A stretch of 64,000 nucleotides of DNA from Asparagopsis taxiformis (lineage: Eukaryota; Rhodophyta; Florideophyceae; Bonnemaisoniales; Bonnemaisoniaceae). The stretch covers positions 1-64,000 of the forward strand of contig JALQPE010001914.1 of the NCBI GenBank assembly GCA_030407315.1. The letters are read 5' to 3'. The stretch's first letter is position 1. Every line of letters starts with the position of its first letter. Below the pieces are notes generated by a model. That model did not search any database. It was not told where the DNA came from and worked only from the letters and a program-made list of their open reading frames with translations. Shown piece after piece: positions 16,186-38,483 of this stretch. A program made the translations under genes and the position numbers.

Positions 16186-16219
16186 CGTCTGTGTTCTCGG
16201 AAATGGACGCGGACGTCCA
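16186..16219 (+). repeat. Left terminal inverted repeat of Element 2
   Basis: 34 bp beginning CGTCTGTGTTCTCGG and ending GGACGTCCA. It pairs with the right end with mismatches at positions 11 and 18; a further CTCTAGTAC word just inside is also shared in inverted order. Confidence 0.9.
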
Positions 16220-16759
16220 CAACCTCTAGTACACCTAGTATTACTAGGCGGACGTCCATGTTCTCCAGTATTTTTGGATGTCCGCCTAGAACCGGACGTC
16301 CATGCGGTCTAGTACGTCTAGTATTACTAGGGCGACATTCAATGTTTCTAGTACCACGGATGTCCCCCTCGGGATGGACTTCCGCCATGTCTATGTCCAC
16401 CTAGGACGGGCGCCGGTTCAGAAATTCAAAAATTTCGACCCCAGAAATTTCTGCCGCCGTGCTCGACATGGATGTCCGCATCCATCACGGCGACCACTCT
16501 ATTTTTCCTTGTCGGTCGACTCCAATTTCGTCTTTAATTTTTTCATCCTCTCGCTCACACCCCCTTCCTGTTGGTGCTCACCTCCCCCGTACTGTACCTC
16601 AAACACCCCCAATACCACTCTAGCACGCATTTTCAGATACCTATCCCCGCTTCCACGGTGCACACCTCCATTCCATACCTACTTTTCTGCTCTACCGTAC
16701 AGATTTCGTATAACCAGTCCTCATACTACCTCAGAATAGGGCAAAACACCCCCTATCTC

Positions 16760-17510
16760 CTCGACCATGCTCTCCCCCATCACCTTTGAAACGTATTGTT
16801 CTTCAGTACCCTCTCTCCTCTACCCTCAACCCCTCTCCTTCGCCCTCTACACAAACTTCCCCTGCAGCTTACTCTTCCAAAACCTCTCACTCCCCATCCC
16901 GTACCCGACCTGCTCCACCCCTCCCTCCCTCAGCTGCTCCATGCCCCCACGCCATCCGCATCTTCGATACCGTATACACCACCACCACCGGCCCACGCTC
17001 CCGCACTGCGGGGTGGCTCCCCCGCCGTATCCCCAGAAACCTCCCCGCTCTGAAACACATATCAACCCCCCACTTCGCACCCTTCCTCCCACTCCCCTCC
17101 CTCCCCAAATACAATAAACCCCTTCTTCTCCATCACATCCCCACTCACCACAGCCAGAACAGACGCCACCCCCTCCCCTTCTTTCTCCTCACTTTCCTAA
17201 AAACCCCTCCTCTCGGCGCCTTCAACCGCACCCTCCTACGGTCCCACCTAAACACCTCCTCCGCCCTCACTACCCCAACACCCCGCAGCGTCTCCCCAAT
17301 CCCCATAATATGCTTGTCGGCACTCCTCTCCGAATCACAATCCATTCTAAACCCGCACTCCGTACATTTCCACCTCCCCCTGTACCATCCCAAGATTCCA
17401 TCCCCCCACAGAACACATCCTCATACCACAGAAGAATTTTCTTCCTCTCATACCTCATCCTTAAAACCTCCATCAGCTCCATGTAAATTTCGATGAAAAT
17501 ATTTTCTCTA
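16760..17510. other. Pyrimidine-rich subterminal region, Element 2 copy
   Basis: Homologue of 560-1320 with frequent small indels. Long proline/serine/threonine-rich plus-strand frames here (for example 16786-17496) are a consequence of base composition, not evidence for a gene. The minus-strand WKCTECGFRM...ADKH peptide is present again at about 17145-17393, with frame breaks on both sides. Confidence 0.45.
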
Positions 17511-17779
17511 CTATGCAATCTCAAACATGTATGAGCCTATGCCTTTCCGCTTTGTCAACCCTGAATATTGGTACTCATGTATTCATAAAATAGGGCCACC
17601 CACATCCCTATCCCGTTCTGCAAGCTTTACAAACCACTAGACGCATACTCCACAACTATACAACAAACACTACTCGCTATTTCAGACGACGCGGTACACA
17701 AGTAGCGTAGTGTCAACCTTCCGTGACGCCTTCCCTGATGCGTACAAGTGGGAAACAAGTCTAGACGTATATCAGAAGT

Positions 17780-19390
17780 GAGTGCGGGAATTTTCGGCAC
17801 AGGAGATGCTGGGCCACCAAATTGATTTTTCGGAAATTTTAGAATTTCTGGGCTGGCCAGCAATGCAATCGAGCTGGACATCCACCGGACGTCCATTTCA
17901 GGTTGGTCGCGAGAGGGTGGGGCGGGACCATGATGAAACAAGGACCAAGACCTTTCCCTGACGTGTTGAGCCTGAAATCGACCCTTCGTGAGACGCGATT
18001 TTGGCTTACAGTTGGTGCTAATAGAAGCCAGTGATAGCCCCGATCGGGGCGGCAGCCGGCTCCGGCTTACAGTTGGTGCTTACAGACGCCAGTGATAGCC
18101 CCCGATCGGGGCCGGCGGTCGGTTCCTGGGGCCGTTGTGGCCAAATTAGACACCCTGATTTGAATTAAAATTTGGGCTATTCTCAAAAACATGCACATGT
18201 GAACATGTTTTTGAGATGGGGGTGTGCCGTACGGCACAATCGACCGCCCAAATCGTTGATTTTTGCAAGATTTTTTGTGCCCGAAATTTTAGAATTTCTG
18301 GGCTGGCCAGCAGTGCATCTGAGCTGGACATCCACCGGACGTCCATTTCAGGTTGGTCGTGTGCTGCCTACATCCACGCATTGCAGAAACTAAGCCAGCG
18401 GGTTCACTACTAATACAAAGTACACGGAATATGAGTAACGTGATAGGTGAGTAGTGTTTGTGTTGAGGGAGTAAGGCGGGACCATGATGAAACAGGGAAA
18501 AGATGTCACCCAAGCATAACTTAGGCTTCAAGCCTGGAATCGACCCTTCGTAAGACGCGATTTTGGCTTACAGTTAGTGCTTACAGAAGCCAGTGATGGC
18601 CCCGCTCGGGGCGGCGGCCGGTTCCTGGGGCCGTTGTGGCCAAATTAGACACCCTGATTTGAATTAAAATTTGGGCTATTCTCAAAAACATGCACATGTG
18701 AACATGTTTTTGAGATGGGGGTGTGCCGTACGGCACAATCGACCGCCCAAATCGATGTTTTTTGCAATATTTTTTTGTGCCCGAAATTGTAGAATTTCTG
18801 GGCTGGCCAGCAATGCATCTGAGCTGGACATCCACCGGACGTCCATTTCAGGTTGGTCGTGTGCTGCCTACATCCACGCATTGCAGAAACTAAGCCAGCG
18901 GGTTCACTACTAATACAAAGTACACGGAATATGAGTAACGTGATAGGTGAGTAGTGTTTGTGTTGAGGGAGTAAGGCGGGACCATGATGAAACAGGGAAA
19001 AAGATGTCACCCAAGCATAACTTAGGCTTCAAGCCTGGAATCGAACCTTCGTAAGACGCGATTTGGCTTACAGTTAGTGCTTACAGAAGCCAGTGATGGC
19101 CCCGCTCGGGGCGGCGGCCGGTTCCTGGGGCCGTTGTGGCCAAATTAGACACCCTGATTTGAATTAAAATTTGGGCTATTCTCAAAAACATGCACATGTG
19201 AACATGTTTTTGAGATGGGGGTGTGCCGTACGGCACAATCGACCGCCCAAATCGATGTTTTTTGCAATATTTTTTTCTGCCCGAATTGTAGAATTTCTGG
19301 GCTGGCCAGCAATGCATCTGAGCTGGACATCCACCGGACGTCCATTTCAGGTTGATCGTGTATCGTGCACGTCCACCCATTACCGGAAGC
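17780..19390 (+). repeat. Palindromic subterminal repeat units, Element 2 left array
   Basis: One partial unit and three full units about 500 bp apart, with hairpin cores near 18182, 18681 and 19181. Each carries the 12-base-arm hairpin and the GTGCCGTACGGCAC palindrome, and ends with TCCACCGGACGTCC. The last two full units are nearly identical over 500 bp, indicating recent duplication. The array ends about 240 bp before the stop of the ParB-dioxygenase gene. Confidence 0.9.
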
Positions 19391-19628
19391 AAGTAGGCGA
19401 TGAAGCACGTACAAACCCAATTGTTCTGCTATTTCTACCATAGACCATCGAGTCTAGAGATGTGAGGGAATCGTCCTGGAAATCATGCTCCAACCCACGA
19501 GGGAATGGACAATCTAGTTTGAAAGCATGGAACGGAAGTACATTATACTAGGTTCATAGATTGGAAGTGATAAAGGAGATGATTATATTCTCGATAATTG
19601 TTTACCAAAGTAGTAGTTGTTAAGCTAT

Positions 19629-22600
19629 CTAGCCGTCGGAAAATTGTTCTTCCTCTTCGTCCTCACTATATTCAGGATCTCCCGGCAGAATAGGCGTTAT
19701 CGGCAACTGTGGAGTTGAATAGCTCAAGATGAATTTTTGACCCGGTGTGAGGGTTCTCTTCTTGGGAGCTTCTGTCGTCTTCATCCGCATGATTCCGAGT
19801 TGCCCTGTCTTCGGCCTACGATCTTTCTTGACCGGGATGGGAACAACTGTCTTGTGGCGAACATTGACAGGTGCCGGTTGACTTTGCCTGGCAGACCGGC
19901 GCGGAGCATTGGCGATTACTTCTTCTTCGAATCCCAACCGCCTGATGAAACCAAACGAAACATTGTCGGGAATCGGATACGACGCATTCCTGAAATACGT
20001 GTGATACCTCGTTGTCGTGTGTGACACAACTCTGTCGACATGCCCTGCCCCGGCATGTTGTACATGGCCGTGACCGATGAAGACTGAACGTGGCGGAACG
20101 ATTACCTTCTTCAGCTTCATCGTCTTGGCGTACATATCTAATTCCAGCGCTTTGGAAAAGACGTACTTGTGGGACCCTGGACACACCCAGATAGGGAATG
20201 GGTCATCTCCGTTGGCAATAACAAAGTAACCCGGAAGTTGATCTTTGCGGTCGCGAGGAGGAACAGGGAAATCATTGTGTGGGACCTGCCGAGGACACCC
20301 CTTTCCCGTTATCAAAAACCGTCCCCCAGATGCCGGCATGACAAGTTTTTCTCCCGGTAAACCGCACTCCTCCAGCCCTATCAGCCGGACAAGGATTCCC
20401 AACCACACATCCAGCAGGGCTCGCCGCGTCACAAACTTGAACCGGTCGATATGCGTCTCATCGTTCTCGGCATAGTCAACCAGGCAGTGGCGCGTAGACG
20501 TGAAGCGAGCCCTCCCCTCATTCCGGTTCTTCTCATCTGTTTCATCGTCCCCAGTATTGACAATGGGACTCCACAGCTGCCGGTTCCCAGGGTCCTTGTG
20601 CACCTCCTCCCCCTCCCACGTTCCCAAAAAGTACCGAAACAATTCCTGGTTAGGAATTTCTTCCATGAGACCCAAGTCAAATGGGAACTTGTCCGACGCA
20701 TCGAGGTAGCTTACATCCGCGAAATTGTGCATCACCGTATACCCTCGCTCGTTGATTTCCGTTCGGCAATTGTGGAAGTACGCCATACCAGTGCCGGCCT
20801 CATACGAATCCTTCCAGCTTGTAGACATTCGCGCAACCTGGGCGAAGTCCAGCCTCGAGGGTAGAAACGTCGATGTAGGCTCACACATCGCCTTGGCAGC
20901 CATCTTCCACGCTGCGAAAAACATCGGATAGATGGTGTCGATCTCGAAAACAAGATGACGAGCCCGATGTTGTTCCGGAATATGCAGCCCCTCAAACACA
21001 GGGTCCATCGCCACTTGCTTCAAATACCTCACCTCTCTGCCCTCCTCATCGATTTCCACACTCTCCAATAACAACCTGAGCTCAATCGGGGGCAGACAGC
21101 CAACCCTCACCGATGCGATGACGTCCGCGGGACGCTGCGCCAGATGATGCCCTTCAGCTCGGTCTTTGACTTCGAAATCGTCGGGAAGAGATGGCATCCG
21201 GTCGTCGAACAGGAGGTCGTGTTCAGAAGGAGAGTCACGAACGATGTAACCGTCTTCATCGACTTCCACTCCTTCCGGAACAGTGAATGTAATTGTCACT
21301 TCGCGGACCCCCTTGCTTTCGACTTGGCCCTCGTCTGCACCCTGTTTGTCTTCCTCGTCCGAAGCGGTATGGACAGATTCTTGGTTGGAGGGAGTCGCAC
21401 CAGCACGTTGGTTATCTTGGGGGACAATCTCAACGGCAGAATCGGGGGAACGGGCGGAGTCTTCGTCAACCTCATCACCGGAAGCAGTGGCTTGTTGTTG
21501 ATCGGTGGGTTTATCAACAACGGCCTGCTCTTCTTCCCCGGCGGATTGTTGTACCACAACCGGCTCTTCTTCCTCGAGGCGTGTGCTCCCCGTCGAGCGA
21601 AGTCGCTGTGAACGGCGGCGGATGCCATGCGAAGCAGGCTCATGTTCGACATTCCGCTGCTTCTTGTGAGTGAGTCTCACATTGGCAGCAGAAGGGCGGC
21701 GTTTGCGTCGAGCCTTAGTCTTCTTCTTCAATGTCGGATTGAAAAACTCTTTCAAGTTCGTTTCCAAATCCTGTAAACGCGTGGTTCTCCGTCGCATTCG
21801 AACCTCACTGCTCCGGTCGTCCCCTCTATACATTGCAATGGCATTGGTGAGATGCCATTGCAACTCCTTCGGCTGCTTAACCGACCCAATTGCCATCTCT
21901 GTGCTCAGAAATGACTTGCGCATAATACTCTTTGGGCGCCCATACGCAGCGTACAGAGAATTTGCTATTGCAGTCACGCGACGGACGTATGTATAGAAGT
22001 CGTTCACGTCAAAGCGTCCATCCGGACGTCCACCATGAGCAGGGTTCAAGTACTCCGAAAGACCACGCAAGACGAAGACAAAGTTTTCTTCCAGCAACTC
22101 GCGCACTATCTTGTGGTCCAGGTGCGTTATCCCAATCTCGTTGCGGCGCTCGGAATTGTTCAGCTCACGCAACACTTCGTCGAGAACAGGATGCTTCAGC
22201 GTTGCTATAGCCAAACGCGTCCACCGCCGGGCCGTGTTCGTTGAATTCATCATCCCCATGAACTGCGCCTCGAACAATGTTCGGATGACATCAGACTCAC
22301 GCAAGTCGCCAGCGTTTTCCACGTTATTTGCAACAGCAATCGTACGGATGAACTGCTGGATGGACGACAAGATTCGAACCAGGGAGCGCTCCGTCAGTTG
22401 CGTCCCAGTCGTATGGTTCGACTCTGCACTCTTGTGGATGATCTCATGAGGCTGAAGATCACTGTCGTCCTTGCGGCGAAGGTAGTACACATCCAGAGGC
22501 TGAGTAACCCAGCGCAAGCGGTTTGCGTCCTGTGGCAGCTTGGTTCTGTGCATACGGGTGAGGCGCGTGAAGTCATCGGCAATGCTATGCATAGCATTGA

Positions 22601-23585
22601 GACGATGCAGTCCGTCGATCACGGTCACGTTCGCATTGGCATGGAATTTGCCATTCTGGAACAGACGCGTGTCGGCGGGCAGATGCGTGTTCTGCGACCT
22701 CAGCACCGTCACAGTGATACGCGAAGAGCTCACATACCCCACAGCCAACATATTGTTGCGCAGGTCCTCCACGTGGTCTTCTTTCACATCCCGAAGGGTC
22801 ACGGCCGGTTCCACTAGCTGCCTCACCAGCACAGTCGCTCCTTCTCCGACGTAATCCGACGTCACAAACTTGGGCACCGTAATTTGCGTCCCCTGCTGCT
22901 CACGAATGCTTTCCGCCACCTCCGGTTCGTCGTCCACTTCGGTTACGTCCTGCGTAGTAGCTTCGGTGACGTTGGAGCGAGCAGGGTGCTTCGTGCCTCC
23001 ACTGGAGGGTCTTGCAGAGCGAGCAGGGCGCTTCGTGCCTCCCGAAACCGGGACGGAGCGTGCTGGATGCTTCGTACCCCCCGAACCAGTGATTTCGCCT
23101 GCCGGACCGGTACTGGGCATCCGTCCCGAGCTGGCCTGGTTCGTCGCTGCGTTGAAGTTTGACGCTGCAGCAGGGGTACGAATGTCGCTAGGGCCATCCT
23201 CCGCAGCGGGGCGCATCATCCGAGTATCCCAAGGGTAAAACGCCGCGGCGTATGCTCCACCCATCGTCTCCGGCGGTCCCTCGGCGCCATCAAACATGTA
23301 CGGGAACGGGAGGTCCTTGAACTTGTCCTTAGTCGCAATGTTGCGCACGACGATATAGTCGGCCTCGTCGGTTTCCGGCAGCTTGTGGTTGTGCAGCGTG
23401 CGCGGAAGGCCAACATCGCCACCAGCAGTGCTCACCGAAGCCGTCCCAATATGCACAGCCGCACCGTCCACGTCCGCAAACAAATTGACATCGACGCCGC
23501 GCTTGAGTCCGCGCGACTCCGCTGACGCGCTCACTTGATCGCCGCAAACCGTTGAAAACAAACTGCTGAAATGCGTATCCGCCAT
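19629..23585 (-). CDS. ParB/Srx-like domain fused to Fe(II)/2-oxoglutarate dioxygenase fold
   Basis: An intronless gene of 1318 residues from the ATG at 23585, which has a good context (ATCATGG); an in-frame ATG at 23705 would add 40 residues (numbering below counts from it). Seen: three GGTK[H/R]PARS repeats at about 209-244; a ParB/Srx-type motif VIDGLHRLNAM at 362-372; basic and acidic low-complexity stretches in the middle; and a C-terminal double-stranded beta-helix pattern with H1143-x-D1145 (PHNDFP), GYFVIANGDD, PGSHK, VPPRS, distal H1217 (VQHAG) and R1233 (RYHTYF). Family knowledge: HxD...H holds Fe(II) and the distal Arg binds 2-oxoglutarate, as in PhyH and TET/JBP enzymes. Inferred: a nuclear, possibly DNA-directed oxygenase. 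The substrate is unknown. It is transcribed divergently from the methyltransferase-SET gene. Confidence 0.75.
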   Translation of the reverse strand: MADTHFSSLFSTVCGDQVSASAESRGLKRGVDVNLFADVDGAAVHIGTASVSTAGGDVGLPRTLHNHKLPETDEADYIVVRNIATKDKFKDLPFPYMFDGAEGPPETMGGAYAAAFYPWDTRMMRPAAEDGPSDIRTPAAASNFNAATNQASSGRMPSTGPAGEITGSGGTKHPARSVPVSGGTKRPARSARPSSGGTKHPARSNVTEATTQDVTEVDDEPEVAESIREQQGTQITVPKFVTSDYVGEGATVLVRQLVEPAVTLRDVKEDHVEDLRNNMLAVGYVSSSRITVTVLRSQNTHLPADTRLFQNGKFHANANVTVIDGLHRLNAMHSIADDFTRLTRMHRTKLPQDANRLRWVTQPLDVYYLRRKDDSDLQPHEIIHKSAESNHTTGTQLTERSLVRILSSIQQFIRTIAVANNVENAGDLRESDVIRTLFEAQFMGMMNSTNTARRWTRLAIATLKHPVLDEVLRELNNSERRNEIGITHLDHKIVRELLEENFVFVLRGLSEYLNPAHGGRPDGRFDVNDFYTYVRRVTAIANSLYAAYGRPKSIMRKSFLSTEMAIGSVKQPKELQWHLTNAIAMYRGDDRSSEVRMRRRTTRLQDLETNLKEFFNPTLKKKTKARRKRRPSAANVRLTHKKQRNVEHEPASHGIRRRSQRLRSTGSTRLEEEEPVVVQQSAGEEEQAVVDKPTDQQQATASGDEVDEDSARSPDSAVEIVPQDNQRAGATPSNQESVHTASDEEDKQGADEGQVESKGVREVTITFTVPEGVEVDEDGYIVRDSPSEHDLLFDDRMPSLPDDFEVKDRAEGHHLAQRPADVIASVRVGCLPPIELRLLLESVEIDEEGREVRYLKQVAMDPVFEGLHIPEQHRARHLVFEIDTIYPMFFAAWKMAAKAMCEPTSTFLPSRLDFAQVARMSTSWKDSYEAGTGMAYFHNCRTEINERGYTVMHNFADVSYLDASDKFPFDLGLMEEIPNQELFRYFLGTWEGEEVHKDPGNRQLWSPIVNTGDDETDEKNRNEGRARFTSTRHCLVDYAENDETHIDRFKFVTRRALLDVWLGILVRLIGLEECGLPGEKLVMPASGGRFLITGKGCPRQVPHNDFPVPPRDRKDQLPGYFVIANGDDPFPIWVCPGSHKYVFSKALELDMYAKTMKLKKVIVPPRSVFIGHGHVQHAGAGHVDRVVSHTTTRYHTYFRNASYPIPDNVSFGFIRRLGFEEEVIANAPRRSARQSQPAPVNVRHKTVVPIPVKKDRRPKTGQLGIMRMKTTEAPKKRTLTPGQKFILSYSTPQLPITPILPGDPEYSEDEEEEQFSDG

Positions 23586-23929
23586 GATTGTTGAGTTGGA
23601 AAGTAAAAGAGATGGTTGACGTTGACGTATTCGAGTGATGTGGATGGTAGGTTTCACGTTGCTTGAAGAATGGTCGTGAACGCCAATCGCTGGAAATAAT
23701 AACACAATACAACCGAAATTTTGTTAGGTACACACCTATCGTGACCGCTGGAATGCAAGACAGGCAATCGAGATGTGAGTGTCCGTTCGGAACGGGCCCG
23801 AGTCGGGCTCTCGAAACCTGACGAGGTGGCGTGAAGCAGGCAGTGTCCTTGATGTGTAATGTGTTAAAATTACAGCTGTCAAGCTAGGCGGCTTTTGGGG
23901 CGGCTGCGAGCACCCCTTTATCCGGGGAA

Positions 23930-24985
23930 CACCCTGATTTGAGTTAAAATTTGGGCTATTCTCAAAAACATGCACATGTGAACATGTTTTTGAGATGGGG
24001 GTGTGCCGTACGGCACAATCGACCCGCCCAAATCGTTGATTTTTGCAAGATTTTTTGTGCCCGAAATTTTAGAATTTCTGGGCTGGCCAGCAGTGCAATC
24101 GAGCTGGACATCCACCGGACGTCCATTTCAGGTTGATCGTGTGCTGCCTACATCCACGCATTGCAGTAACTAAGCAGGCGGGATCACTACTAATATAAAG
24201 TGCACGGAATATGAGTAACGTGATGGGTGAGTAGTGTTTGTGTTGAGGGAGTAAGGCGGGACCATTATGAAACACGGAAGAAGATGCGTACCTAGCATAA
24301 CTTAGGCTTGAAGCCTGGAATCGACCCATCTTTCGGCGCCATTTAGCCTTACAGTTAGTGCTTACAGAAGCCAGTGATGACCCCGCTCGGGGCGGCGGCT
24401 CCGGTTCCTGGGGCCGTTGTGGCCAAATTAGACACCCTGATTTGAATTAAAATTTGGGCTATTCTCAAAAACATGCACATGTGAACATGTTTTTGAGATG
24501 GGGGTGTGCCGTACGGCACAATCGACCCGCCCAAATCGATGATTTTTTACAATTTTTTTGTGCCCGAAATTTTAGAATTTCTGGGCTGGCCAGCAGTGCA
24601 ATCGAGCTGGACATCCACCGGACGTCCATTTCAGGTTGGTCGTGAGAGAGTGAGGCGGGACCATGATGGAACAAGGACCAAGACCTGTCCCTGGCGTATT
24701 GAGCCTGAAATTGACCCTTCGTCAGACGCCATTTAGCCTTACAGTTAGTGCCTACAGAAGCCAGTGACAACCCCACTCGGGGCGGCGGCCGGTGCCTGGG
24801 GCCGTTCTGGCCAAATTAGACACCTTGATTTGAATTAAAATTTGGGCTATTCTCAAAAACATGCACATGTGAACATGTTTTTGAGATGGGGGTGTGCCGT
24901 ACGGCACTTTCGACCGCCTAAATCGATAAAATTTTGCAATTTTTTTCCTGCCCGAAATTCTACAAGTTCTGGGCTGGCCAGTAAT
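23930..24985 (+). repeat. Palindromic repeat units between the ParB and methyltransferase genes
   Basis: Three units with hairpin cores near 23961, 24464 and 24852. The first lies about 375 bp upstream of the ParB-dioxygenase start codon, so these internal units sit in the promoter-side spacer between two divergent genes. Confidence 0.9.
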
Positions 24986-26549: not shown

Positions 26550-29500
26550 ATGACGAATAAGCGCAGGCGCAACAGCAATCCGATCGTTGACGACGCAACC
26601 GTGCCAATTCTGCGCGAACCCGCTAGCCCTTGGGAGGATTCTAGTGACATGGGTACACGTCGAAACGTAGGTCGCGCCGCCCGCGAAACTACTCTCGCTG
26701 GCAAAGACTTCCTCCGCCTCTTGCTGGATTTGTTCGCCCACTCAAGTTTCGCAGACTTGACGGACAAGCCGGGAGGTTTCACATACGCGGACCTTGGCGC
26801 TTGGGTTGCGCAGGGCACGGAAGAACAATTTCTGGCGCTGCAAGGTCGACTCAGCATGGCCTTCAGCGGTCGTTCGAAGAATGCTGGAGTCGAGGCGGAT
26901 GTTGCCGAAATCGTCATGGCAGAGATGAACGTTGAGCGAGCCAAGCAGATTGTTCGTCTGGCATTACCGATTGCCGAGTTTTCAAGACAGGATGAGCGTA
27001 TCGGGCAATGGGTTGAGCACTGCATCCTTTCTGGGATCGTGCCGCAGACCTTCCTTATTGGATGTAACATGCTTCCTTCGCCACTACAGGCGCCGCAGCG
27101 CGGGGAACCAAGCGCCTTCGTTCTTGCTCCACCGGAAACGTTCGAGGTATTGATGTATTTCCAAGCGTTGTCTATCATCCGAAATCACAACAAGAACCTG
27201 CCGCGTCGCCGAATAGGCGACGCGGCCGAGGAGGGGAACGAAGCCGCACGCGTCCCAGCCCATCGGAAAAGCACTAATCGAGCTTGTTACGTGGTTCAAG
27301 TTTTATACCATGCTTGGACCGATGTGGCCTTCGCCGCAAAGTTTTCCAGCTTCGAAGAGTTGATGGCGCCGTACATCATTTTCGACAGCAGTGAGCATTG
27401 GTTTGACGTGCTCGATGAAGGTCTATTCGCACCGATAGAGCAGAAGCTAGATCTCTACCACGACAAAGCTCCCCTATCTCATCCTGATGGATATGGTGGA
27501 AAAGTAGAGACAAGAACCAGTGCGCAGCACAGTGTATTTAGGGACCTTGTGAGGAAGTTCTTCGACCGGTTGCAGTTTCTTATCGTCAACCCGGACCTGT
27601 ACACCTGGCCGGAGTCCGACCGCTGGGGGGCGCTGGAAATATACTTGTCAAGCGGAAATCCGGACAAGCTGCCAGCGTACTTTGACACCCTCGACGAAGA
27701 CGTTATGGCTGTCCTCCGCCCGGCACCACAAGCCGCGGACGCAGAAAAGGTCCCCAAGCCGGTTGATGACACTCCCACTCGTCGCAACACAGGAGGGAGA
27801 GGTTTGGTTCCGTCGACAAGACACACAACCAGGCTTCAACTTGGACCTGGGAGGACCAGTCTTACTGCCCAAGGGCCGTCTCCCCCGTCACCGTCACCCC
27901 ATGCGACAGAAGAGCAGGAAAGTGAAGGGCAGGCTCTCGCAAAGGACTTTCTTTCGAAAATGAGTCAGTATTGCCGGGTGTACGACGTCCCTTTCGAAGA
28001 TTTGGTCAGTGCCGACGAGAGCCGAGAACACGTGCCCATCACGGGCAACGTTCAGCTCATTCTGACTGATCCGCCCTACAATGTTCGTCGTAAGAGGAAC
28101 GATTCCAACTCTTCGTACGACAGGCTAACTGCAGAAGATATGCAGGCTAGCATCGAAGTGTTTGACGAGCTGTTGCGCCCCGGTGGCCACGGCATCGTGT
28201 TCTGCTCCGTTTTGCAGTTCTACGAATGGTTCCATTACTTGGAAACGTACAAAGGACCGCAGTCAGAAGGCCCAACCGATGCTGCTGCCAGTGATGACGG
28301 GTCGGATGAAGAAGAGGTTACGTCCATGAATTCGGACTCCGAAGCATCGCAGCACAGTGGCGAAGAAAGTGCGGATGAGGAGGAGGAGGAGGACGAGGAG
28401 GAGGAGGACGTCGTTCGGAATTCAGTTTTCTTCGTTGACGAGGTACCTCTGTTGTTTGTCCGACTACCTGGGCACCTCTATCAAATGCCGGGGCGGAAGA
28501 GGTACCAACGCATGAACATGGCAGAGGTCGCTATCCACTTCTGGAAGCGAGGTGTTCCGTTCAAGACTGGAAGCGAGATGGTGGCCTATAGGAACCACGG
28601 ATACATGGACGGCACGTACCCGGCGTGGTGCAACGTCACCATCAATATGCCCGCCATCGATTCGAATGAGATGGTGTGGCGAACAAGGAGCACAACCGGT
28701 GCTACGGTCAGAGTTCGTGCAGAGCAGAAGAGCGTCGCTCTCATGATGGAGTTGATCAGCCAGCATTCACAGCCTGGTGATATTGTTGTCGATCCATTCT
28801 CTGGCACTTTCGCAACGGGAAAAGCAGCTATGAGCTTGCCTGAGCACCGTGTTTTCGTCGGCAGTGACATGGACAAATTGTGTGTGGCACGATCGCTTCC
28901 AAAGCTGTGTGCAGTCATGTCACGTGTAATTCTTTCAAACAACACTGACATGAGGGTCACGACAGAAGCGAAACAGAGTGCTGAGAAGTTCTTGGCGTCC
29001 CCCTCTGTCACGATGCGTACGCAGAGGGAACGCAGGATCATCGAACCCCCACCTGGCCTTCCCCTGTACCAGAGGTTCCCGAAATATATTCGGCAGTACC
29101 TCTGGCAGCTGTGCCCAGAGTCGATTGCGTCGCACGAGCACATGGAAAAACCGGTACATTATTGGCCACCTTCCCTGCGCCGCTGGTTGCAAACTGAAAA
29201 CCCTCGCGTGATGCGGGCACACGATTGTGTTGCGAAAAAATTGAGCGTTCGACCATCGCTGATTAAGCATCCAAATGCAGGAAGAGGGCTCTTCGCTGAA
29301 CAGACATTTAATGTTGGCGACGAAGTATGTGCATACTACGGAACTGTTGTGTACTCTGATATGAGCAAGGAGTCGATGAGGTTCGCGTACGGAGAGGGTC
29401 ACATGGCGATAACGAAGGAAACATTCTTGATGTATGCCATCAAGCTGTATGCAACAGCGGAGGACGACGAAAACATCGAGCATCCAATTTGGATTGTTCC

Positions 29501-29753
29501 GGCTCCGTTCTGTTCGGCGCAGTTCATCAACGACCCGCGGTATTTGCGAGGTGAGGACACTCCGGCGGAAGACACCAGGCGGATGGCCAACGTCGAGTTT
29601 GTCGAGAACTACAGCAGCGGTTCGACGGGGAAGAAGCTCAAGGCGAAGGACCTAGAAAATCCGAAGATCATTGTAGTACGTGCAATCCGCGATATCCGTC
29701 CGGGGCAGGAGCTCTACGTTCATTATGGGACAGCGTTTAGAGCATGGAATTAG
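26550..29753 (+). CDS. Beta-class amino-DNA methyltransferase fused to SET domain
   Basis: An intronless gene of 1067 residues. The N-terminal 460 residues are unrecognised. The methyltransferase follows: catalytic motif TDPPYN at 506-511, then a highly acidic insertion at about 580-621, then the AdoMet-binding motif VDPFSGTFATG at 747-757 preceded by a helix with KSVALMMELI. Motif IV before motif I is the permuted order of the bacterial beta class (N6-adenine or N4-cytosine). The C-terminus is a SET domain: GRGLFA at 911-916, QFINDPRY at 991-998 and ELYVHYG at 1054-1060. A canonical post-SET cysteine cluster is not visible. Inferred: one protein that could methylate DNA and a histone or other lysine. 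FATG replaces the more usual SGTT in motif I, so activity is unproven. Confidence 0.8.
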   Translation: MTNKRRRNSNPIVDDATVPILREPASPWEDSSDMGTRRNVGRAARETTLAGKDFLRLLLDLFAHSSFADLTDKPGGFTYADLGAWVAQGTEEQFLALQGRLSMAFSGRSKNAGVEADVAEIVMAEMNVERAKQIVRLALPIAEFSRQDERIGQWVEHCILSGIVPQTFLIGCNMLPSPLQAPQRGEPSAFVLAPPETFEVLMYFQALSIIRNHNKNLPRRRIGDAAEEGNEAARVPAHRKSTNRACYVVQVLYHAWTDVAFAAKFSSFEELMAPYIIFDSSEHWFDVLDEGLFAPIEQKLDLYHDKAPLSHPDGYGGKVETRTSAQHSVFRDLVRKFFDRLQFLIVNPDLYTWPESDRWGALEIYLSSGNPDKLPAYFDTLDEDVMAVLRPAPQAADAEKVPKPVDDTPTRRNTGGRGLVPSTRHTTRLQLGPGRTSLTAQGPSPPSPSPHATEEQESEGQALAKDFLSKMSQYCRVYDVPFEDLVSADESREHVPITGNVQLILTDPPYNVRRKRNDSNSSYDRLTAEDMQASIEVFDELLRPGGHGIVFCSVLQFYEWFHYLETYKGPQSEGPTDAAASDDGSDEEEVTSMNSDSEASQHSGEESADEEEEEDEEEEDVVRNSVFFVDEVPLLFVRLPGHLYQMPGRKRYQRMNMAEVAIHFWKRGVPFKTGSEMVAYRNHGYMDGTYPAWCNVTINMPAIDSNEMVWRTRSTTGATVRVRAEQKSVALMMELISQHSQPGDIVVDPFSGTFATGKAAMSLPEHRVFVGSDMDKLCVARSLPKLCAVMSRVILSNNTDMRVTTEAKQSAEKFLASPSVTMRTQRERRIIEPPPGLPLYQRFPKYIRQYLWQLCPESIASHEHMEKPVHYWPPSLRRWLQTENPRVMRAHDCVAKKLSVRPSLIKHPNAGRGLFAEQTFNVGDEVCAYYGTVVYSDMSKESMRFAYGEGHMAITKETFLMYAIKLYATAEDDENIEHPIWIVPAPFCSAQFINDPRYLRGEDTPAEDTRRMANVEFVENYSSGSTGKKLKAKDLENPKIIVVRAIRDIRPGQELYVHYGTAFRAWN

Positions 29754-29974: not shown

Positions 29975-30190
29975 ACCAAGTTGAAATGGACGCCCGGTGG
30001 ATGTCCAGCTCAGTTGCATTGCTGTCCGGCCCAGAAATTCTACAATTCAGGGCAGAAAAAAATATTGCAAAAAACATCGATTTCAGCGGTCGATTGTGCC
30101 GTACGGCACACCCCCATCTCAAAAACATGTTCACATGTGCATGTTTTTGAGAATAGCCCAAATTTTAATTCAAATCAGGACGTCTTCCGG
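29975..30190 (-). repeat. Inverted palindromic repeat unit before the coiled-coil gene
   Basis: A single unit in reverse orientation, hairpin core near 30117, between the end of the methyltransferase-SET gene and the start of the next ORF. Left-side units point one way and this right-side unit points the other, matching the mirror arrangement in Element 1. Confidence 0.9.
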
Positions 30191-30412
30191 ACATAGGGGT
30201 GCTCGCGGCCTAGCTCTACAGCTGTAATTGTACCTCATTAAATACTGTTGATGACTGCCTACCGTATACAATCTGGGCTGTTGGCGTATTATCCGGTACT
30301 TGACCTGACCTGAACGTTCATCGCAGACCGTTGTGGTTACCGACACTATACAGCAATCTTTTTTGTATCTCGTGCAACTCAATCGTTCCATCGCTTCCGG
30401 GAAAGCTTCATT

Positions 30413-32698
30413 ATGCCGCCGCGTATTGCGAAGAAAGCTCCAAAGCCTCCGGGCCTCCAGAAAACCCGGTCAGCAGCTGCTGTATCGAGTGCCCGACAAT
30501 CCCGTGCGAAGAAGCGGTCTGGGCCTACCGGCAGCATTGAACCGCGGTCCGGTAGTCGCAAGACGGACCGGCGCAGAACTGGGGATCCGCAGCGAGAAAG
30601 TGAGGAAGGAGGAACGGCGCGGAGAGAGATGGGGCTTGACCGAGGCAAGCGTGCTCGCAGGGACAGTGAACATCATGATGATGACATGATAGTGGCTCAA
30701 AACATGTTGGAATTGCGGCAGAGTGCTATGGCAAAGGTAGTTCCTCCCGGGTTGGCAGATGCGGAGGTGCTGCAGACGGAGTCCCAGCCGGGGGTTCGCG
30801 AGACACTGGAGGCTGTGACCCCCACTGCGCCAACTATGCCGAGTACATCAGCCCCAGCAGGTAATGCAGTCAGGGACCCGAGGATAGCGGCAAGGGATGT
30901 TGTTTCTGAGCAACGTTCACAGGATGCCAACTATCATCGGCGGTCAGGTGGTACTGAGGGGAGAGAGCAGCCGGAGTGCGGGCCTCGTCACAACAGACTG
31001 TCATTGGTGCCAAATATGCGCGTAACGCCCCCGCGACGTCAGGCTATTGGCGATGGAGGACATCATATTCCCGATAGCGTGGGAGATGGGGGGACGGTGA
31101 GGGCAGAGAGGTTGCATCCGCCGGAATCCATCGATTTAATGGCGAGTCGCATCAATGCGCAGAAGAAGAAGATCGCGGAGCTGGAAAAAAAAGTGTTTAG
31201 CCAGGACATAGCAAACAAGGCGCTCACCACGGAGATAGTTGCGTTGGAGGCTAAGGTGAAGACTCTGCAGGCGGAAAATGCCAGCCTTACTGCAATTGCG
31301 AGAACAGGTAGAATCAGTGATCACGGTGGCGGTAAGTCGAAAATACAGAAAGCCATTCCTGTGAAATACCTTGGAGTTCTTAGGGCGGTTGAGGAAAACC
31401 TGACAAAGTGGTGCAAGAACGAGACTATGGAGCTGGACCCTATAGCGGAACAAACGCAGAGACGTTGGACTGGACGTACCATCGAGGTAGAGCCGGTAGA
31501 AGGGGCACTTTGGAGCGAAAACGGTGTAGGATATATTGCTACCCCTCCGGGCTATATCATCAAGAATCTGCAGTGGTATACACCTTCGTACAGGGACGAG
31601 AGTGATCTGCTGAATGACTTGGTGCGACACGTACTGCGTCAAAGTCCGTGGTGTGATGTGTTTTCCGATGAGGAGCAGCGTGTGTGCTGTCAAGAGGCTG
31701 TGGCGGGGAGCAAGGAATTGAAAGTGAAGGTGACGCAGAAACTGTCCGACGTGATGAGTGCACGGAAGCGTAATGCGAGGGACAGATTGTTCGGTTCGCT
31801 GGGGTACACGAAATTAATGTCTAGATGCACGATGCTGACGACGCGAGCTGAGATGGACGAGCGAGAGGAACAAAAGCGCGAAGCGTCTGAGAAGCTTTTG
31901 AAACGGGAAAGTAACGGTGATTTGGATATGGGGAGGTGGCGAACGGCACCGTTCTCAGAGCTGCGATACAGCAAAGGCTTGGTTCCTGACAGCTTCGAAA
32001 TGGAAGTGAATGGTGATGCATGGTTTAACAACCGAGTAGCTGTGAATGTGCTGGACATCTTCAGGGGTTATTCGATACGACCAGAACAAGTAATGGACAT
32101 AGAGACGAGCATACTAACGCTGGCGCGCCTGGATGCTTGGCTAGTGACTACTGTGGAGTGTTTGGATGAACCGAAGGGGAAAGGAGGTGCACGGCAGAAG
32201 GAGTTTACAAGGCGGTACAGTCAATATGTGGGGGTAGCTTTTCAGCAATTAGTTGGTATGGTGGTGTACTGCATGTCTTGTCTCCAAGGCTCGCAAGCAA
32301 GGGAAGAAACGGACGTTGTCGAGAGCGAACAGCGGACTAGTGCACAGTCACGGCATGTGTTTGCAAGCCGTACTGTGACGAGAGAGGCTGTTGAAGTGTG
32401 GCAAAGCGGAGAGGGGTCTGGAATTGTTCATGTCGTTGATGATGTAAACCGCTGCTCATCACTTGTTCTAGTGTCCGAGGATTGGATTCAATCGCATATT
32501 ACGTCAAACCTCGGTGCTGTAATGGATTGTGTGATTGCGCAAGGACTAATTGGCGCAGAACTTTTCGTCGTTGACCCATATGCTGGACACCTGAGTGCAA
32601 ACCTGAATGTCGAAATCAATGCCCCACAGTATGGGGGCATGGAGCGGCGCCATGCAGCCACTGCTGATAACGGTTTTGGCGTAATGGAGGATGGTTGA
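30413..32698 (+). CDS. Unrecognised basic coiled-coil protein of Element 2
   Basis: An intronless gene of 761 residues starting ATGCCGCC. The N-terminal 75 residues are lysine/arginine-rich and nuclear-localisation-like. A low-complexity region follows, then a heptad-like coiled coil at about 245-295 (INAQKKKIAELEKKV onward), then a globular C-terminal part with no family I recognise (YIATPPGYIIKNLQWY near 380; YFQ/W-rich helices later). Its stop is 78 bp from the stop of the convergent transposase gene. By position and build it could be the accessory DNA-binding protein that CACTA-like elements often carry beside the transposase, but no homology supports this. Confidence 0.65.
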   Translation: MPPRIAKKAPKPPGLQKTRSAAAVSSARQSRAKKRSGPTGSIEPRSGSRKTDRRRTGDPQRESEEGGTARREMGLDRGKRARRDSEHHDDDMIVAQNMLELRQSAMAKVVPPGLADAEVLQTESQPGVRETLEAVTPTAPTMPSTSAPAGNAVRDPRIAARDVVSEQRSQDANYHRRSGGTEGREQPECGPRHNRLSLVPNMRVTPPRRQAIGDGGHHIPDSVGDGGTVRAERLHPPESIDLMASRINAQKKKIAELEKKVFSQDIANKALTTEIVALEAKVKTLQAENASLTAIARTGRISDHGGGKSKIQKAIPVKYLGVLRAVEENLTKWCKNETMELDPIAEQTQRRWTGRTIEVEPVEGALWSENGVGYIATPPGYIIKNLQWYTPSYRDESDLLNDLVRHVLRQSPWCDVFSDEEQRVCCQEAVAGSKELKVKVTQKLSDVMSARKRNARDRLFGSLGYTKLMSRCTMLTTRAEMDEREEQKREASEKLLKRESNGDLDMGRWRTAPFSELRYSKGLVPDSFEMEVNGDAWFNNRVAVNVLDIFRGYSIRPEQVMDIETSILTLARLDAWLVTTVECLDEPKGKGGARQKEFTRRYSQYVGVAFQQLVGMVVYCMSCLQGSQAREETDVVESEQRTSAQSRHVFASRTVTREAVEVWQSGEGSGIVHVVDDVNRCSSLVLVSEDWIQSHITSNLGAVMDCVIAQGLIGAELFVVDPYAGHLSANLNVEINAPQYGGMERRHAATADNGFGVMEDG

Positions 32699-32775
32699 AA
32701 TTAGTGCAGTAAATGTGACGTTGACTAGAAGGTTTATCATGTAGTACATTATCAATAGAGTGCTGCGATTTAGAT

Positions 32776-35700
32776 TTATTCTTCTTCATTATCATCTGTG
32801 AACTGGTAATCAGTGTTGGTGTAGAAGCGGTTGAGATAGAAACGGTGGTCCGACCAGTGCATTTGTTTCGTAAATGGCTTGACTGGAAAGTTACTTCGTA
32901 CGATGTGCACGGTGCCAGATATAGTAGATGCAGGAATGAGGTCAAACCAAGGACCACCTGCACTGTGGGATGCAGTGTCATTGCTGTCAACGGATCCGTT
33001 GTCCGGGTCCCATGTGGACCACTTTAAACAAATGCACCCAAGTGATTTTTCCACAGCGGTTTTTGGGGCAAAGCAGGTCATATACTGAACGAAAGCGAGT
33101 TCTACAGGTTGAAACAGGTTTGGAGACTGCAGGCGTACCAGTGCCAGGACGCGCCCTACCCATATGGTTCTGTAGTCATCGGCAGTTCCGGAGATGACGA
33201 CAAAGGAGTACTGCGATCTCTTTGCGGGGCCGAACGATGAAGTTGCAAAGACGCGCTGCTGCTTGTGCCTCGACACGTTTGTGGGGCGAAGCATGCCACT
33301 GTGCGGGTCAAAGTCGTCGGCATCTGGGACGTACCCTCCCATGACGTAGGCGGACTTTACCACGGTGACGGAAATGTCCATGTCATGTATTGGAGGGCCT
33401 TCTGCCGTGGCGCGCAGTCTAGCGAGGGTGAGGAACGCTTGTGCAGCTGTGTCACCGAGTTGCTGGAATAGCGTTATGGTGCCAGACGGGAACGAGGAGT
33501 TGTGCAGAGGCAAAAGAGTGGCAGGATCGGGCTGTCCGTCGATATCTGCAACGAGGAGGGTTGCATCGGGCAGCAGGGAGGCAAAGTCGTGCAGTGCAAC
33601 GGTGAATCCGTCGCGAACGAGTACTGCACCGTCTGTGGGCGATATCATGCGTGCGTTTCCCAATGTGTTCGATGGGGTATGACCAGTTGGAGTGGCCAAG
33701 GAGAATTCCATGTGGCGAATAGTCTCTTCCATGGCTGTGGAGCGCCTTCGAGAGGTTTTCCTATAACTCTGTTTGAACAGAAGATGCGAGTGTTCGTAGG
33801 GGCCTGCATCAATGTGTTCCAGGGCGCCATATCTCTGCAAGTCACCGGGAAGATGGTCTAGAAGATGGAACTTGAAAGTTTTGAGACCTGTGGTGTGGAA
33901 TGGGCCGAGGGTGGAGAGCATTGATTGTTTGAAATAGGAAATGGAGTTCTGGAGGCTTTCTAGTTCGGCGGCAGTCCAGTGCTTGATGCGACCGCGTTTC
34001 ATGACCCATGCGACGAGGTCAGAGTATTGCGTGCAGATGGAAGTGAGGGGGGCTGTATCTACTTCGTCACAGCATGTGTCAATGAATGCTGCGATGAAAG
34101 GGAACACCATGTCGACATGGTGATAGTCTTTGGCTGCGAGCATGCCGCGTATGCCGTCCTCCGTGAAGAGGCCGTTCAAATTGGTGCCCTTCTCACCCTT
34201 GGAGAAGTCGACATGAAGACCGGTGATGTAGTAGTCGCGTTCGATAGCGGACAGAATGCTGTTTGAGCCGGCGAGGATGGATTTTTTCACCTTCTTGAAG
34301 GTGCGAGGTGTCCCGGAATGGGAGGCAGTGGTGGTGAGGTCTGGGGAGCTGAGGCGGTGGACAATGCACTGTTTGATGAGCTTTGAGATGCCGAGGTGGA
34401 GATTGTGCAGAGGCTCGAAGGAGAAAATGTTGTAGGGGTCTAGGGGACTGTTGGTGGGTAAAAGAGCGGTCGATTCGAGGACAGAGTGTTGTTCGAGGAG
34501 GGAGAGAGCTTCGAGCGGAGCAGTTGTATGCTCCTGAGCGCTCTCTTGGCGTGCAGAGCGTGTATCATCGAGGGAGCGGGGCTGGTGTGGCGCGCTGGAT
34601 TCAAGTTGAGTGGCGGGGATGTAGCAGCGGTGGCAGGGATGTGTGGTGGTAGTGCTGTTGCGAGTGCATGACAGCTCTTTGGCCTCTGGAAAGTCGCAGC
34701 AATAATTGGCTAGGATGGGAAAGCATTGGCGGGCAGTTGCAGTGGAGTCTGTGCAGGGGAACCCGGAAGAGAACGCGGTGGATAGGGACGAAAACACTTT
34801 TTCGAGTGCTTTATGAAGAATATCAATTTTGCGAGCGCGACTAGCAGAACTAGAGGTTGTCGGCATTTCATCACCGAACAAGGCGTTGGACGAAGGGTTA
34901 ACAATGTACGGAAGATACCCGACGATGGTGAGGCCGGTACGGATGCAGTGGCGACGGAGGGGGGCGGAGAAGTTGAGCAGTGTGACGTGTATGGGGTATG
35001 CGACGATTGCGGAGCTCTTGAGGCTTGTGCTGCTCTTGTCGGAGTACACTTGGAGGAGGCCGGCAAAGGAGGAAGCGGTGGGATCATTTTCCTCTGCCCA
35101 TACGACCTGTGGATCTTCCGAGAGCTGCACGCGCTGTCTAGTAACCTGGTGCAGCGTTTTCGCGAATTCTGTGTGTAGGGGATGAGAAAATATTGCGGTG
35201 CCGTCTGGGGCGGTCTGTGGGGAGGGGTGGAAGAGAGTATTTTGGTCGTTAGCCAGTGCTAACTGCCTGCGGAGCATGTCGACTGGGTCGCGGAGGTACA
35301 GCTGTGCCGAGTACTTACCAGTTTTGTCTGGAATGATGTGGCTCTTGTAACCTTCGGTGCGGAAATGTGTTTCGACCATGGAAGCGGTAACGTGGCGACA
35401 TTCTTCTACGGTGCGAACGGCGCTGTTGAACTTTTCTAGGGAGAATGCGGGGTCTTGTAGGATGGTGATGACTTCGCTCACGCGGCCAGCGCCGGCCTTG
35501 TACTCGAGGGTTGTGAGACTGGCGGCGAGGGATTGCACGAGGAGGTCTGCGCGGGAGGGGGTTGAGGTTGGTGGCAGTGAAGCGTCACAGGGTGAGTCGC
35601 TGGAGGAAGCACGACCAGATTCTGGGTCTGGGGAGCTGGGTTGCGGGGAATCATGGTCGCCGTTTCGAGCAGGCTCATGGGTGACGGCAGGGACACGAGC

Positions 35701-35814
35701 GTTGTTGAAATGTTGGGGAGAGGGGTTGAAACGGTAGCGACACGTTCGCTCATGCAGCGCGAGCGCATAAGCATCTACGCAGTAGTAGAAGCACCCTTCA
35801 TACTTGCATTCCAT
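32776..35814 (-). CDS. Plavaka-like DDE transposase of Element 2
   Basis: An intronless gene of 1012 residues. The N-terminus has a C-x4-C-x12-H-x3-C zinc finger (residues 3-25), as is common in this family. Core motifs resemble Plavaka/CACTA-type transposases: VYSDKSSTSL (D259) followed by a YPIHVTLLNFS strand; YCCDFPEAKEL (D374) followed by HPCHRC; FSFEPLHNLHLGI (E467, replacing the frequent D in the DPLHQL-type motif); and near 672-690 the EHSHLLFKQSYRKT signature. D259, D374 and E467 are candidate catalytic residues, assigned by pattern only. It should bind the element's ends and perform cut-and-paste. The frame is uninterrupted, which suggests recent activity. Confidence 0.8.
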   Translation of the reverse strand: MECKYEGCFYYCVDAYALALHERTCRYRFNPSPQHFNNARVPAVTHEPARNGDHDSPQPSSPDPESGRASSSDSPCDASLPPTSTPSRADLLVQSLAASLTTLEYKAGAGRVSEVITILQDPAFSLEKFNSAVRTVEECRHVTASMVETHFRTEGYKSHIIPDKTGKYSAQLYLRDPVDMLRRQLALANDQNTLFHPSPQTAPDGTAIFSHPLHTEFAKTLHQVTRQRVQLSEDPQVVWAEENDPTASSFAGLLQVYSDKSSTSLKSSAIVAYPIHVTLLNFSAPLRRHCIRTGLTIVGYLPYIVNPSSNALFGDEMPTTSSSASRARKIDILHKALEKVFSSLSTAFSSGFPCTDSTATARQCFPILANYCCDFPEAKELSCTRNSTTTTHPCHRCYIPATQLESSAPHQPRSLDDTRSARQESAQEHTTAPLEALSLLEQHSVLESTALLPTNSPLDPYNIFSFEPLHNLHLGISKLIKQCIVHRLSSPDLTTTASHSGTPRTFKKVKKSILAGSNSILSAIERDYYITGLHVDFSKGEKGTNLNGLFTEDGIRGMLAAKDYHHVDMVFPFIAAFIDTCCDEVDTAPLTSICTQYSDLVAWVMKRGRIKHWTAAELESLQNSISYFKQSMLSTLGPFHTTGLKTFKFHLLDHLPGDLQRYGALEHIDAGPYEHSHLLFKQSYRKTSRRRSTAMEETIRHMEFSLATPTGHTPSNTLGNARMISPTDGAVLVRDGFTVALHDFASLLPDATLLVADIDGQPDPATLLPLHNSSFPSGTITLFQQLGDTAAQAFLTLARLRATAEGPPIHDMDISVTVVKSAYVMGGYVPDADDFDPHSGMLRPTNVSRHKQQRVFATSSFGPAKRSQYSFVVISGTADDYRTIWVGRVLALVRLQSPNLFQPVELAFVQYMTCFAPKTAVEKSLGCICLKWSTWDPDNGSVDSNDTASHSAGGPWFDLIPASTISGTVHIVRSNFPVKPFTKQMHWSDHRFYLNRFYTNTDYQFTDDNEEE

Positions 35815-36410
35815 GTCGAGTTTTGACGCAAAAGGGAGGATTGCGAGCTGAACAGGGGAGACTGTGCCGTCCAGATGCGACCAATTTTATTTTTGTGGTG
35901 CTTTCGAGACTTGGAATGTAACGTGTTCGTAGTTTTTTGGGTAGTAGTTTTGTGCTCACTCCAGCTGACATCCCAACGGTGGAATTTAACCGAGAGTTCA
36001 ATCATTTCCAACTGTTACATCACATTGCGTGCTGGCAACGTGTGCATGGAAGGACGAACGACTGCCCTGGGAGATGAATTTTCAATTAATTCATTTGTAA
36101 TAATAAACTTTTTTATTTCCAAACTTCGTGGAATCTGAATGTGCTTTACAGCGGATATGCCACAGATCATGTAAGGAAAGCAAATGGATTCTCATATATA
36201 TGATTATATGTTTATATTCGTTGTTCTCGATCCGGATCTCTTGTTCGGGGAATCAGAGACCATGGCTTGGGCCATACTCAATCTCACTGCCGGCGATGAT
36301 TTCGAGTATGCACAGCAAGACTTAAGCGGACGCAGAAAGCTGTCCGGTCGACGCCGCAGGCTCCACTCCGCCCTCATCACCGACTGATCTTCTTTGACCG
36401 ACTTTGCTTT

Positions 36411-37532: not shown

Positions 37533-37859
37533 AGGAGAGTGAAGAAGGGATGTAGGAAGATGGGGAATGAAGCTGTGAGGTGTTTCTGGTATGTGTATAT
37601 TTTGGGGCATACGATAGAAGTGAGAGTGCGTTTCAAGTGGTGTAAGATTTTGCTGACCATGTTCGTGTTTGATGTCTTGATGATTTAATGGGCTGGGGTG
37701 GTGTCGAGGAAAGCGGGGATGGTATTGGGAAGGAGCGTATTTTTTGTAATCTAGGTCGTGAGGGTTCTTGCAGTATGTGCGGATGGTGGTGCATGGCGTT
37801 CGGATGGTAGGGAGAACGCGATAGTGAGGGAGATGGGTGATCGACGATATGCTGACAGG

Positions 37860-37975
37860 TATTTTGTATTCTGGCTGGATACGTATTTCCTATTCTAACC
37901 GGGTATTTATTTCCTATTCTAACCGGGTATTTATTTCCTATTCTGACCAGATATGTATTCCCTATTCTAGAGAGA
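37860..37975. repeat. 24-bp tandem repeat, about four units
   Basis: Same unit family as 12059-12220 but with fewer copies; the middle units carry the AACCGGGTATTTATTTCC variant. Confidence 0.85.
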
Positions 37976-38092
37976 CGTATTGTATACGAGCAGTTTCCTA
38001 AATGAGAGAATAAAATACGGTCCGATATGGGCCCTGAATTTACCATCCGCTGTAATTTCTTCCCTCCCGGTTTTCGCTGATATATTGTATAC

Positions 38093-38350
38093 TGGATGTC
38101 GGGTCCTAGTATTCCGCCATATGTACTAGAGAAAGTGGATGTCGGGTCCTAGTATTCCGCCATATGTACTAGAGAAAGTGGATGTCGGGTCCTAGTATTC
38201 CGCCATATGTACTAGAGAAAGTGGATGTCGGGTCCTAGTATTCCGCCATATGTACTAGAGAAAGTGGATGTCGGGTCCTAGTATTCCGCCATATGTACTA
38301 GAGAAAGTGGATGTCGGGCCCTAGTATTCCGCCATATGTACTAGAGAAAG
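38093..38350. repeat. 43-bp subterminal tandem repeat, six units
   Basis: Six contiguous units starting at 38093, 38136, 38179, 38222, 38265 and 38308. All carry the CATATGT variant, unlike the mixed array in Element 1, which suggests recent homogenisation. Immediately followed by GGACGTCCGCATCC and an A/T-rich stretch leading to the right terminus. Confidence 0.9.
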
Positions 38351-38449
38351 TGGACGTCCGCATCCAAAAAATTTTTATTTTTTTTTGGACGCGGACGTTC
38401 ATTTGTTCTAGTAAATCTCGGGGCCGACTAGGACCCGTACTAGAGAGAC

Positions 38450-38483
38450 TGGACGTCCGCGTCCACTTCCGAAAACACAGACG
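38450..38483 (-). repeat. Right terminal inverted repeat of Element 2
   Basis: 34 bp ending CACAGACG, inverted partner of 16186-16219. The adjacent TT at 38484-38485 is the right copy of the apparent target duplication, and gypsy A pol resumes there. Confidence 0.9.

Follow-up and report, generated by a model that had tools for sequence, protein, structure and literature searches.

In a 64,000-nucleotide stretch of DNA from the red alga Asparagopsis taxiformis (assembly GCA_030407315.1, contig JALQPE010001914.1, positions 1 to 64,000; hereafter the window), positions 16186-38483 form a single 22-kb DNA transposon bounded by terminal inverted repeats (TIRs), which we call element 2. As the original prediction held, this one unit carries a Plavaka transposase, a DNA methyltransferase-SET fusion and a protein in which a ParB-like motif is joined to a putative Fe(II)/2-oxoglutarate (2OG) dioxygenase. 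What is new here is a set of 35-bp palindromes, near-invariant and kept in gene-less derivatives of the element, together with a parallel second family. As far as sequence can tell, the palindromes are a possible addressing device and make it more plausible that the element marks or de-silences itself. The model that we favour, with a confidence just short of even, is of an autonomous Plavaka-type element whose palindrome-guided epigenetic kit keeps its own family accessible.

Element 2 runs from CG-TCTGTG to CACAGA-CG. Its TIR arms are 34 bp each, with two differences between them and at the predicted ends: the left arm (L type, GTTCTCGGAAATGG...) lies at 16186-16219 on the forward strand and begins with CG, the flanking or duplicated dinucleotide, and the right arm (R type, GTTTTCGGAAGTGG...) lies at 38450-38483 on the reverse strand, its last two bases again being CG. 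The TIR core matched three times within the window, against 0.00 expected from 100 shuffles. The right end also holds 43-bp subterminal direct repeats (38093-38357), which are present too at the right end of a second unit in the window, element 1. Element 2 splits a retrotransposon, with reverse transcriptase (PF00078) on one side and integrase (PF00665) on the other; we read the interrupted retrotransposon as being of the Ty3 type. A search for the empty site found one related copy, with CTTC at the insertion place.

Four long open frames lie within the unit. The first (19629-23723, reverse strand) encodes the ParB-motif dioxygenase protein (1318 amino acids, 19629-23585). The second (26499-29753, forward strand) encodes a beta-type amino-DNA-methyltransferase with a DPPYN motif fused to SET (1067 amino acids, 26550-29753), recognised by Pfam and by alignment. 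The third (30314-32698, forward strand) encodes a coiled-coil protein of unassigned family (761 amino acids, 30413-32698), and the fourth (32776-35886, reverse strand) the transposase (32776-35814), which belongs to Plavaka by its profile match (PF18759, E 1.7e-24, 87.1 bits against a cut-off of 26.3). Judged by its Plavaka transposase, the genome would probably be that of a fungus. No Rfam match was found inside element 2, and no relatives were found on the viral contigs searched.

The 35-bp palindrome, CTCAAAAACATGCACATGTGAACATGTTTTTGAGA, occurs eight times in element 2, always in non-coding blocks. Three copies lie downstream of the dioxygenase gene (18182-18216, 18681-18715 and 19181-19215) and three upstream of it (23961-23995, 24464-24498 and 24852-24886); a seventh is upstream of the methyltransferase-SET gene (26047-26081). 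These seven read on the forward strand. The eighth, on the reverse strand, lies between the methyltransferase-SET and coiled-coil genes, upstream of the latter (30117-30151). To avoid ascertainment bias, we located the repeats through a segment adjoining the palindrome, which gave 30 copies from five elements. The palindrome had no mismatch in 29 of these and three in the remaining one (3/1050 sites), against 59 mismatches over 900 positions of the locating segment in the same copies. With a second locating segment (41 copies), it was perfect in 29, three bases off in one and absent in 11.

All genome-wide counts refer to the 141.5-Mb assembly. At up to three mismatches the palindrome matched 8334 times, and the control not at all. 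On contigs C4-C40, 80 of the 88 listed palindrome sites were found inward of a TIR and within 23 kb of it; such TIR-inward stretches cover 18-75% of the four contigs with known length, the clearest case being C12, where 9/9 sites fall in 18% of the contig.

The original prediction had suggested a genome-wide search for the TIR, and this gave 1367 and 1395 core matches on the two strands with up to two mismatches allowed (2762 in total), against 0 and 0 in the reversed control. If all ends pair, the family would comprise some 1400 units, which at 10-21 kb each would occupy, as an order of magnitude, between a tenth and a fifth of the assembly. Among the first 100 TIR places listed there were 12 adjacent facing pairs, each formed by an L end and an R end. 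Of these pairs, six span 10.0-12.0 kb, one 15.6 kb, three 20.0-20.8 kb, one 27.2 kb and one 29.1 kb. Further marks of Plavaka elements are a target site duplication of 2-3 bp and termini of the form TGT..ACA (A) or CATCA..TGATG (B). The element 2 family has the termini TCTGTG..CACAGA, with CG on both flanks in 10 of 11 elements (that of the window and 10 of the 12 pairs, the two longest being dropped); the remaining one has AA on the left. The first 30 R ends retrieved were all preceded by CGT. The flanking CG may have arisen by duplication of a 2-bp CG target, or else it belongs to conserved ends. Counted singly, 21 of the 22 flanks of these 11 elements carry CG, and the transposon may thus target CpG, or its ends include CG. 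CpG is the usual site of cytosine methylation in fungi.

We read the gene content of two other full-length units (C88 and C69) and of two 12-kb derivatives (C11 and element 1 of the window). Both full-length units contain all four genes in the same order as element 2, whilst the two derivatives contain none of them. The full-length units read support the claim that the genes travel with the TIR family. The claim that all the genes are open is true of element 2 but not of every family member: C88 has open frames for the methyltransferase-SET protein and the transposase, its dioxygenase and coiled-coil genes being broken, and in C69 the transposase frame alone is whole, with the dioxygenase gene (an insertion of ~0.8 kb and one stop), the coiled-coil gene and the methyltransferase-SET gene all broken. 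Element 1 (3-12774) has both ends in common with element 2, its left TIR being one base short of the pattern. Seven palindromic sites are found in each of the two gene-less derivatives, five in C88 and three in C69. Element 1 also contains an 814-nt inverted repeat (3473-4286 and 7672-8485) that is 100% complementary.

Gene copies were also scored across the assembly, taking the best 35 dioxygenase and the best 43 methyltransferase-SET matches from larger candidate lists, a selection that gives no intact share. Within it, 35/35 dioxygenase copies are full length and 34 have no stop; 43/43 methyltransferase-SET copies are full length and free of stops. Ten contigs, including that of the window, are common to both best-hit lists, and in 10/10 the dioxygenase and methyltransferase-SET genes stand next to each other in divergent orientation, separated by 2.1-3.0 kb; one of the ten holds a second methyltransferase-SET copy without a listed dioxygenase partner. 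Against both other full-length copies, dN/dS lies below 1 for the dioxygenase and methyltransferase-SET genes (0.17 and 0.38, 0.22 and 0.39), and near or above 1 for the coiled-coil frame and the transposase (0.92, 2.15, 1.26 and 0.79), all of these values resting on few changes.

The profile searches that had been proposed for the proteins recovered Plavaka, N6_N4_Mtase and SET, with no match for the ParB-motif dioxygenase protein. The methyltransferase half belongs to the beta class by its Pfam match to N6_N4_Mtase (E 3.1e-15, 57.2 bits against a cut-off of 26.7), and the other half is a SET domain by the same measure (E 1e-6, 29.6 bits against 22.4). Ten database homologs align over 76-100% of the query, including its N-terminal region without a named domain; eight of the ten have both Pfam domains, and identity is 27-33% except for one copy at 99%. 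DPPY, expected in the beta class ahead of the FxG motif, is present in the window protein and in 8 of the 11 aligned rows, and ND(P/A)R is found in 11/11. The usual SET motif at the place of ND(P/A)R is NHS. Because the homologs align across the query, mostly with both domains and with the motifs kept, the methyltransferase-SET protein is, on this comparison of sequences, an established fusion family and not a chance joint.

The ParB-motif dioxygenase protein was aligned with a second such protein of the window (ParB2, below) and two database homologs (P0001 and P0002). The N-terminal half has the motif IDGxHR (IDGLHR at residues 323-328), of which DGxHR is found in all four proteins and which we take to be ParB-like. 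In the C-terminal part, the HxD, distal H and R of the Fe(II)/2OG superfamily (HND at 1103-1105, H1177 and R1193) are likewise kept in 4/4. Pfam has no family match for the element 2 protein. Foldseek matches to low-confidence models fell short of significance (best E 0.16 and 0.97); judged by title, Fe(II)/2OG oxygenases make up 46/50 and 50/50 of the listed PDB entries, with KanJ chains accounting for many, and these fold matches are presumably of the PhyH kind. With the HxD...H...R pattern in all four proteins and oxygenase titles among the weak fold matches, we assign the protein with moderate confidence as a putative Fe(II)/2OG dioxygenase. Kinship to TET/JBP is not supported: there is no Pfam match to that family at E ≤ 1, and no member of it is named among the 50 PDB fold matches listed for each weak model. 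A further round of protein searching, started from the alignment of the four proteins, found no match. With PHROGs, ParB2 matched only weakly, to families without an assigned function (best E 0.013), and the element 2 protein matched none. As a separate observation, the sole PF02195 (ParB) match in the assembly, at C1526:7582-7839, stands beside an open reading frame (ORF) that we read as ParA-like, at 62% G+C; this locus is probably a bacterial plasmid contaminant.

A parallel arrangement is found in another repeat family of the window. ParB2 (58490-61726, forward strand; 1040 amino acids from the Met at 58604) is flanked by six copies of a 39-bp palindrome that is unrelated to the 35-bp one, two within 57531-57682 (at 57531 and 57644) and four within 61977-62905 (at 61977, 62116, 62754 and 62867). 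The dioxygenase domains of ParB2 and the element 2 protein are homologous (E 3e-9). Their N-terminal halves gave no BLASTP match at E ≤ 0.01, as expected if their binding specificities differ. A scan of the window for long palindromes listed 33 places, of which 14 are the 35-bp palindrome and six the 39-bp one; no other was seen more than twice. The 39-bp pattern matches one strand 9652 times and the other 9646 times, which amounts to about 9650 sites because the pattern is nearly its own reverse complement, and 48 of 49 sites read have at most three mismatches (these sites were found by the palindrome itself, without a control for bias). Four loci were chosen by a gap of 4.2-4.4 kb between palindrome clusters, and in all four a ParB2 gene lies inside the gap, its frame intact in two loci and broken in the other two; in a fifth locus, which lacks a gap of this kind, there are 39-bp palindromes but no ParB2 match. 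Next to ParB2 are two forward-strand ORFs of unassigned family (starting at 53546 and 55245; 53546-57410), which have no Pfam match and adjoin ParB2 in 2/2 other loci, where their frames are partly broken. Behind ParB2 stands a third, decayed copy of a ParB-motif dioxygenase gene in tandem (window ~63137-64000, L059 1-2700), followed by more 39-bp palindromes. Elsewhere in the window, a weak chromodomain match (45057-45770, E 0.0045, below the cut-off) lies near a retrotransposon-like ORF.

Parts of this arrangement have precedents. Fungal TET+ DNA transposons, such as TET+ PlavakaB, carry a TET/JBP dioxygenase (Kojima 2025, PMC12730594); they resemble element 2 as DNA transposons, Plavaka among them, with a 2OG dioxygenase thought to act on their own DNA. 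Element 2 differs from them in its ParB-like N-terminal half, the absence of a TET_JBP Pfam match, its methyltransferase-SET partner and its dedicated palindromes, and its dioxygenase has HxD where the PE type has HxE. The word ParB is absent from the main text of PMC12730594. HarbingerS and MuDR elements carry SET genes (as cited in PMC12730594) and are like element 2 in this, whereas the SET of element 2 is fused to an amino-DNA-methyltransferase.

Sola1-1_Ec32 of Ectocarpus is a 21.5-kb DNA transposon that encodes both a ParB-like domain and an N4C/N6A methyltransferase; the passage that describes it proposes that they bind and modify the transposon's own DNA (PMC12477816). The likeness to element 2 is that of a giant DNA transposon with a ParB-like domain and an amino-methyltransferase. 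However, in Sola1-1_Ec32 the two are in one protein, whilst in element 2 the ParB-like half is on the dioxygenase and the methyltransferase on SET, in separate genes; and the passage names no palindromic sites, unlike element 2. We considered the algal ParB-methyltransferase protein class for element 2 and set it aside, since in element 2 the two domains lie in separate genes. Bdelloid N4CMT (PMC8885841) also joins a bacterial-type N6_N4 methyltransferase to a chromatin module in a eukaryote, but its gene belongs to the host, its chromatin module is a chromodomain, and it silences transposons and is not the cargo of one. ParB is not mentioned either in the main text of a 2026 review on DNA methylation in fungi (PMC13297926). 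Among titles and the starts of abstracts, with most subscription papers outside this scope, we found no description of a transposon combining a ParB-motif dioxygenase with a methyltransferase-SET protein. In bacterial ParB-parS, palindromic sites are repeated near the ParB gene. Element 2 departs from that system in failing ParB profile membership, in bearing its sites on a eukaryotic transposon and in having a dioxygenase as the effector.

In the favoured model, element 2 would be an autonomous cut-and-paste transposon of the Plavaka type, about 20-22 kb long, whose copies multiplied greatly in the recent past. The N-terminal half of the dioxygenase protein, with its ParB-like motif, would bind the 35-bp palindromes that family members carry in their non-coding blocks, and the Fe(II)/2OG dioxygenase at its C-terminus would thereby be delivered to copies of the element. 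On the same chromatin, the methyltransferase-SET protein would write two marks, one amino-methyl (N6A or N4C) and one on lysine. Jointly, they would leave the DNA of the family, including gene-less derivatives, accessible or unsilenced for transcription and transposition. The anatomy, the copy number, the linkage of the genes in the copies read, the conservation and retention of the palindromes and the parallel second family are observed; that the ParB-motif protein binds the palindromes, what the two enzymes act on and in which direction they work are inferred. The sites kept in gene-less derivatives fit an action in trans by full copies. A more general proposal, possible but doubtful in our judgement, is of a ParB-parS-like self-addressing in eukaryotic DNA transposons, in which a ParB-like domain joined to a dioxygenase reads the palindrome of its family and confines modification to that family. 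At least two families with unrelated palindromes would do so, one of them adding a methyltransferase-SET writer.

Several results weigh against the favoured model. Conservation is not confined to the palindrome but extends from about -27 to +70, with its peak on the palindrome, so other bound factors are possible, and three of the sites lie downstream of the dioxygenase gene and not in a promoter. In both other full-length copies read, C88 and C69, the dioxygenase gene is broken. The structure models, predicted from four sequences, are of poor quality (mean pLDDT 38 and 41), and the weak fold matches are mostly small-molecule enzymes (KanJ), AlkB and histone demethylases standing lower in one list. 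On the ParB side, PF02195 sees neither ParB-motif protein, and both Pfam and NCBIfam are negative; hhalign against a bona fide ParB gave a probability of 0.1%; and tblastn with a 186-residue N-terminal segment, that of ParB2 only, found no match in phages and plasmids. The ParB identity given in the original prediction is thus reduced to the motif, and the label appears to denote a motif-level likeness only.

The palindromes could instead serve transcription or transposition, as promoters, insulators, terminators or internal transposase sites, with no relation to the ParB-motif protein and with the enzymes unguided. Their position in non-coding blocks upstream of three genes would suit such a role, as would their retention in gene-less derivatives, which still need transposase. 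We nevertheless think this unlikely on balance: the palindromes are distant from the element ends, the usual binding place of CMC-type transposases, and the same kind of arrangement surrounds a ParB-motif gene in a different repeat family, whose neighbouring ORFs have no Pfam match.

Two other explanations retain the enzymes but change what they are for. The kit might be a self-limiter, with the methyltransferase-SET protein and the dioxygenase repressing or marking copies as a form of copy-number control and not of de-silencing. SET domains and amino-methyl marks can be repressive, and bdelloid N4CMT marks transposons for silencing (PMC8885841), but the huge amplification of a family with many intact copies makes such a limiter improbable. 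Less probable still, and in our view a poor prospect, is that the cargo is a passenger without a role for the element, or serves the host. Six of the 12 listed bounded units are only 10-12 kb, and C11, one of these six, and element 1 lack the genes; moreover, two or three genes are broken in both of the other full-length copies read. Set against this, the methyltransferase-SET protein belongs to a coherent family (10 homologs, eight with both domains), dN/dS is below 1 for both enzymes, if on few changes, and a related dioxygenase is kept in the second family.

It is an open question how a transposon can shield its copies, thousands in number, from silencing and yet leave the host genome undisturbed. 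Transposon-borne dioxygenases are known, but a way of aiming them at the element is not. If the palindrome-guided model is true, DNA-binding domains joined to a dioxygenase might offer a new class of programmable epigenetic editors, and the pairing of a palindrome with a binding domain, found in two cases with different sequences, would make the targeting of these transposons directly testable.

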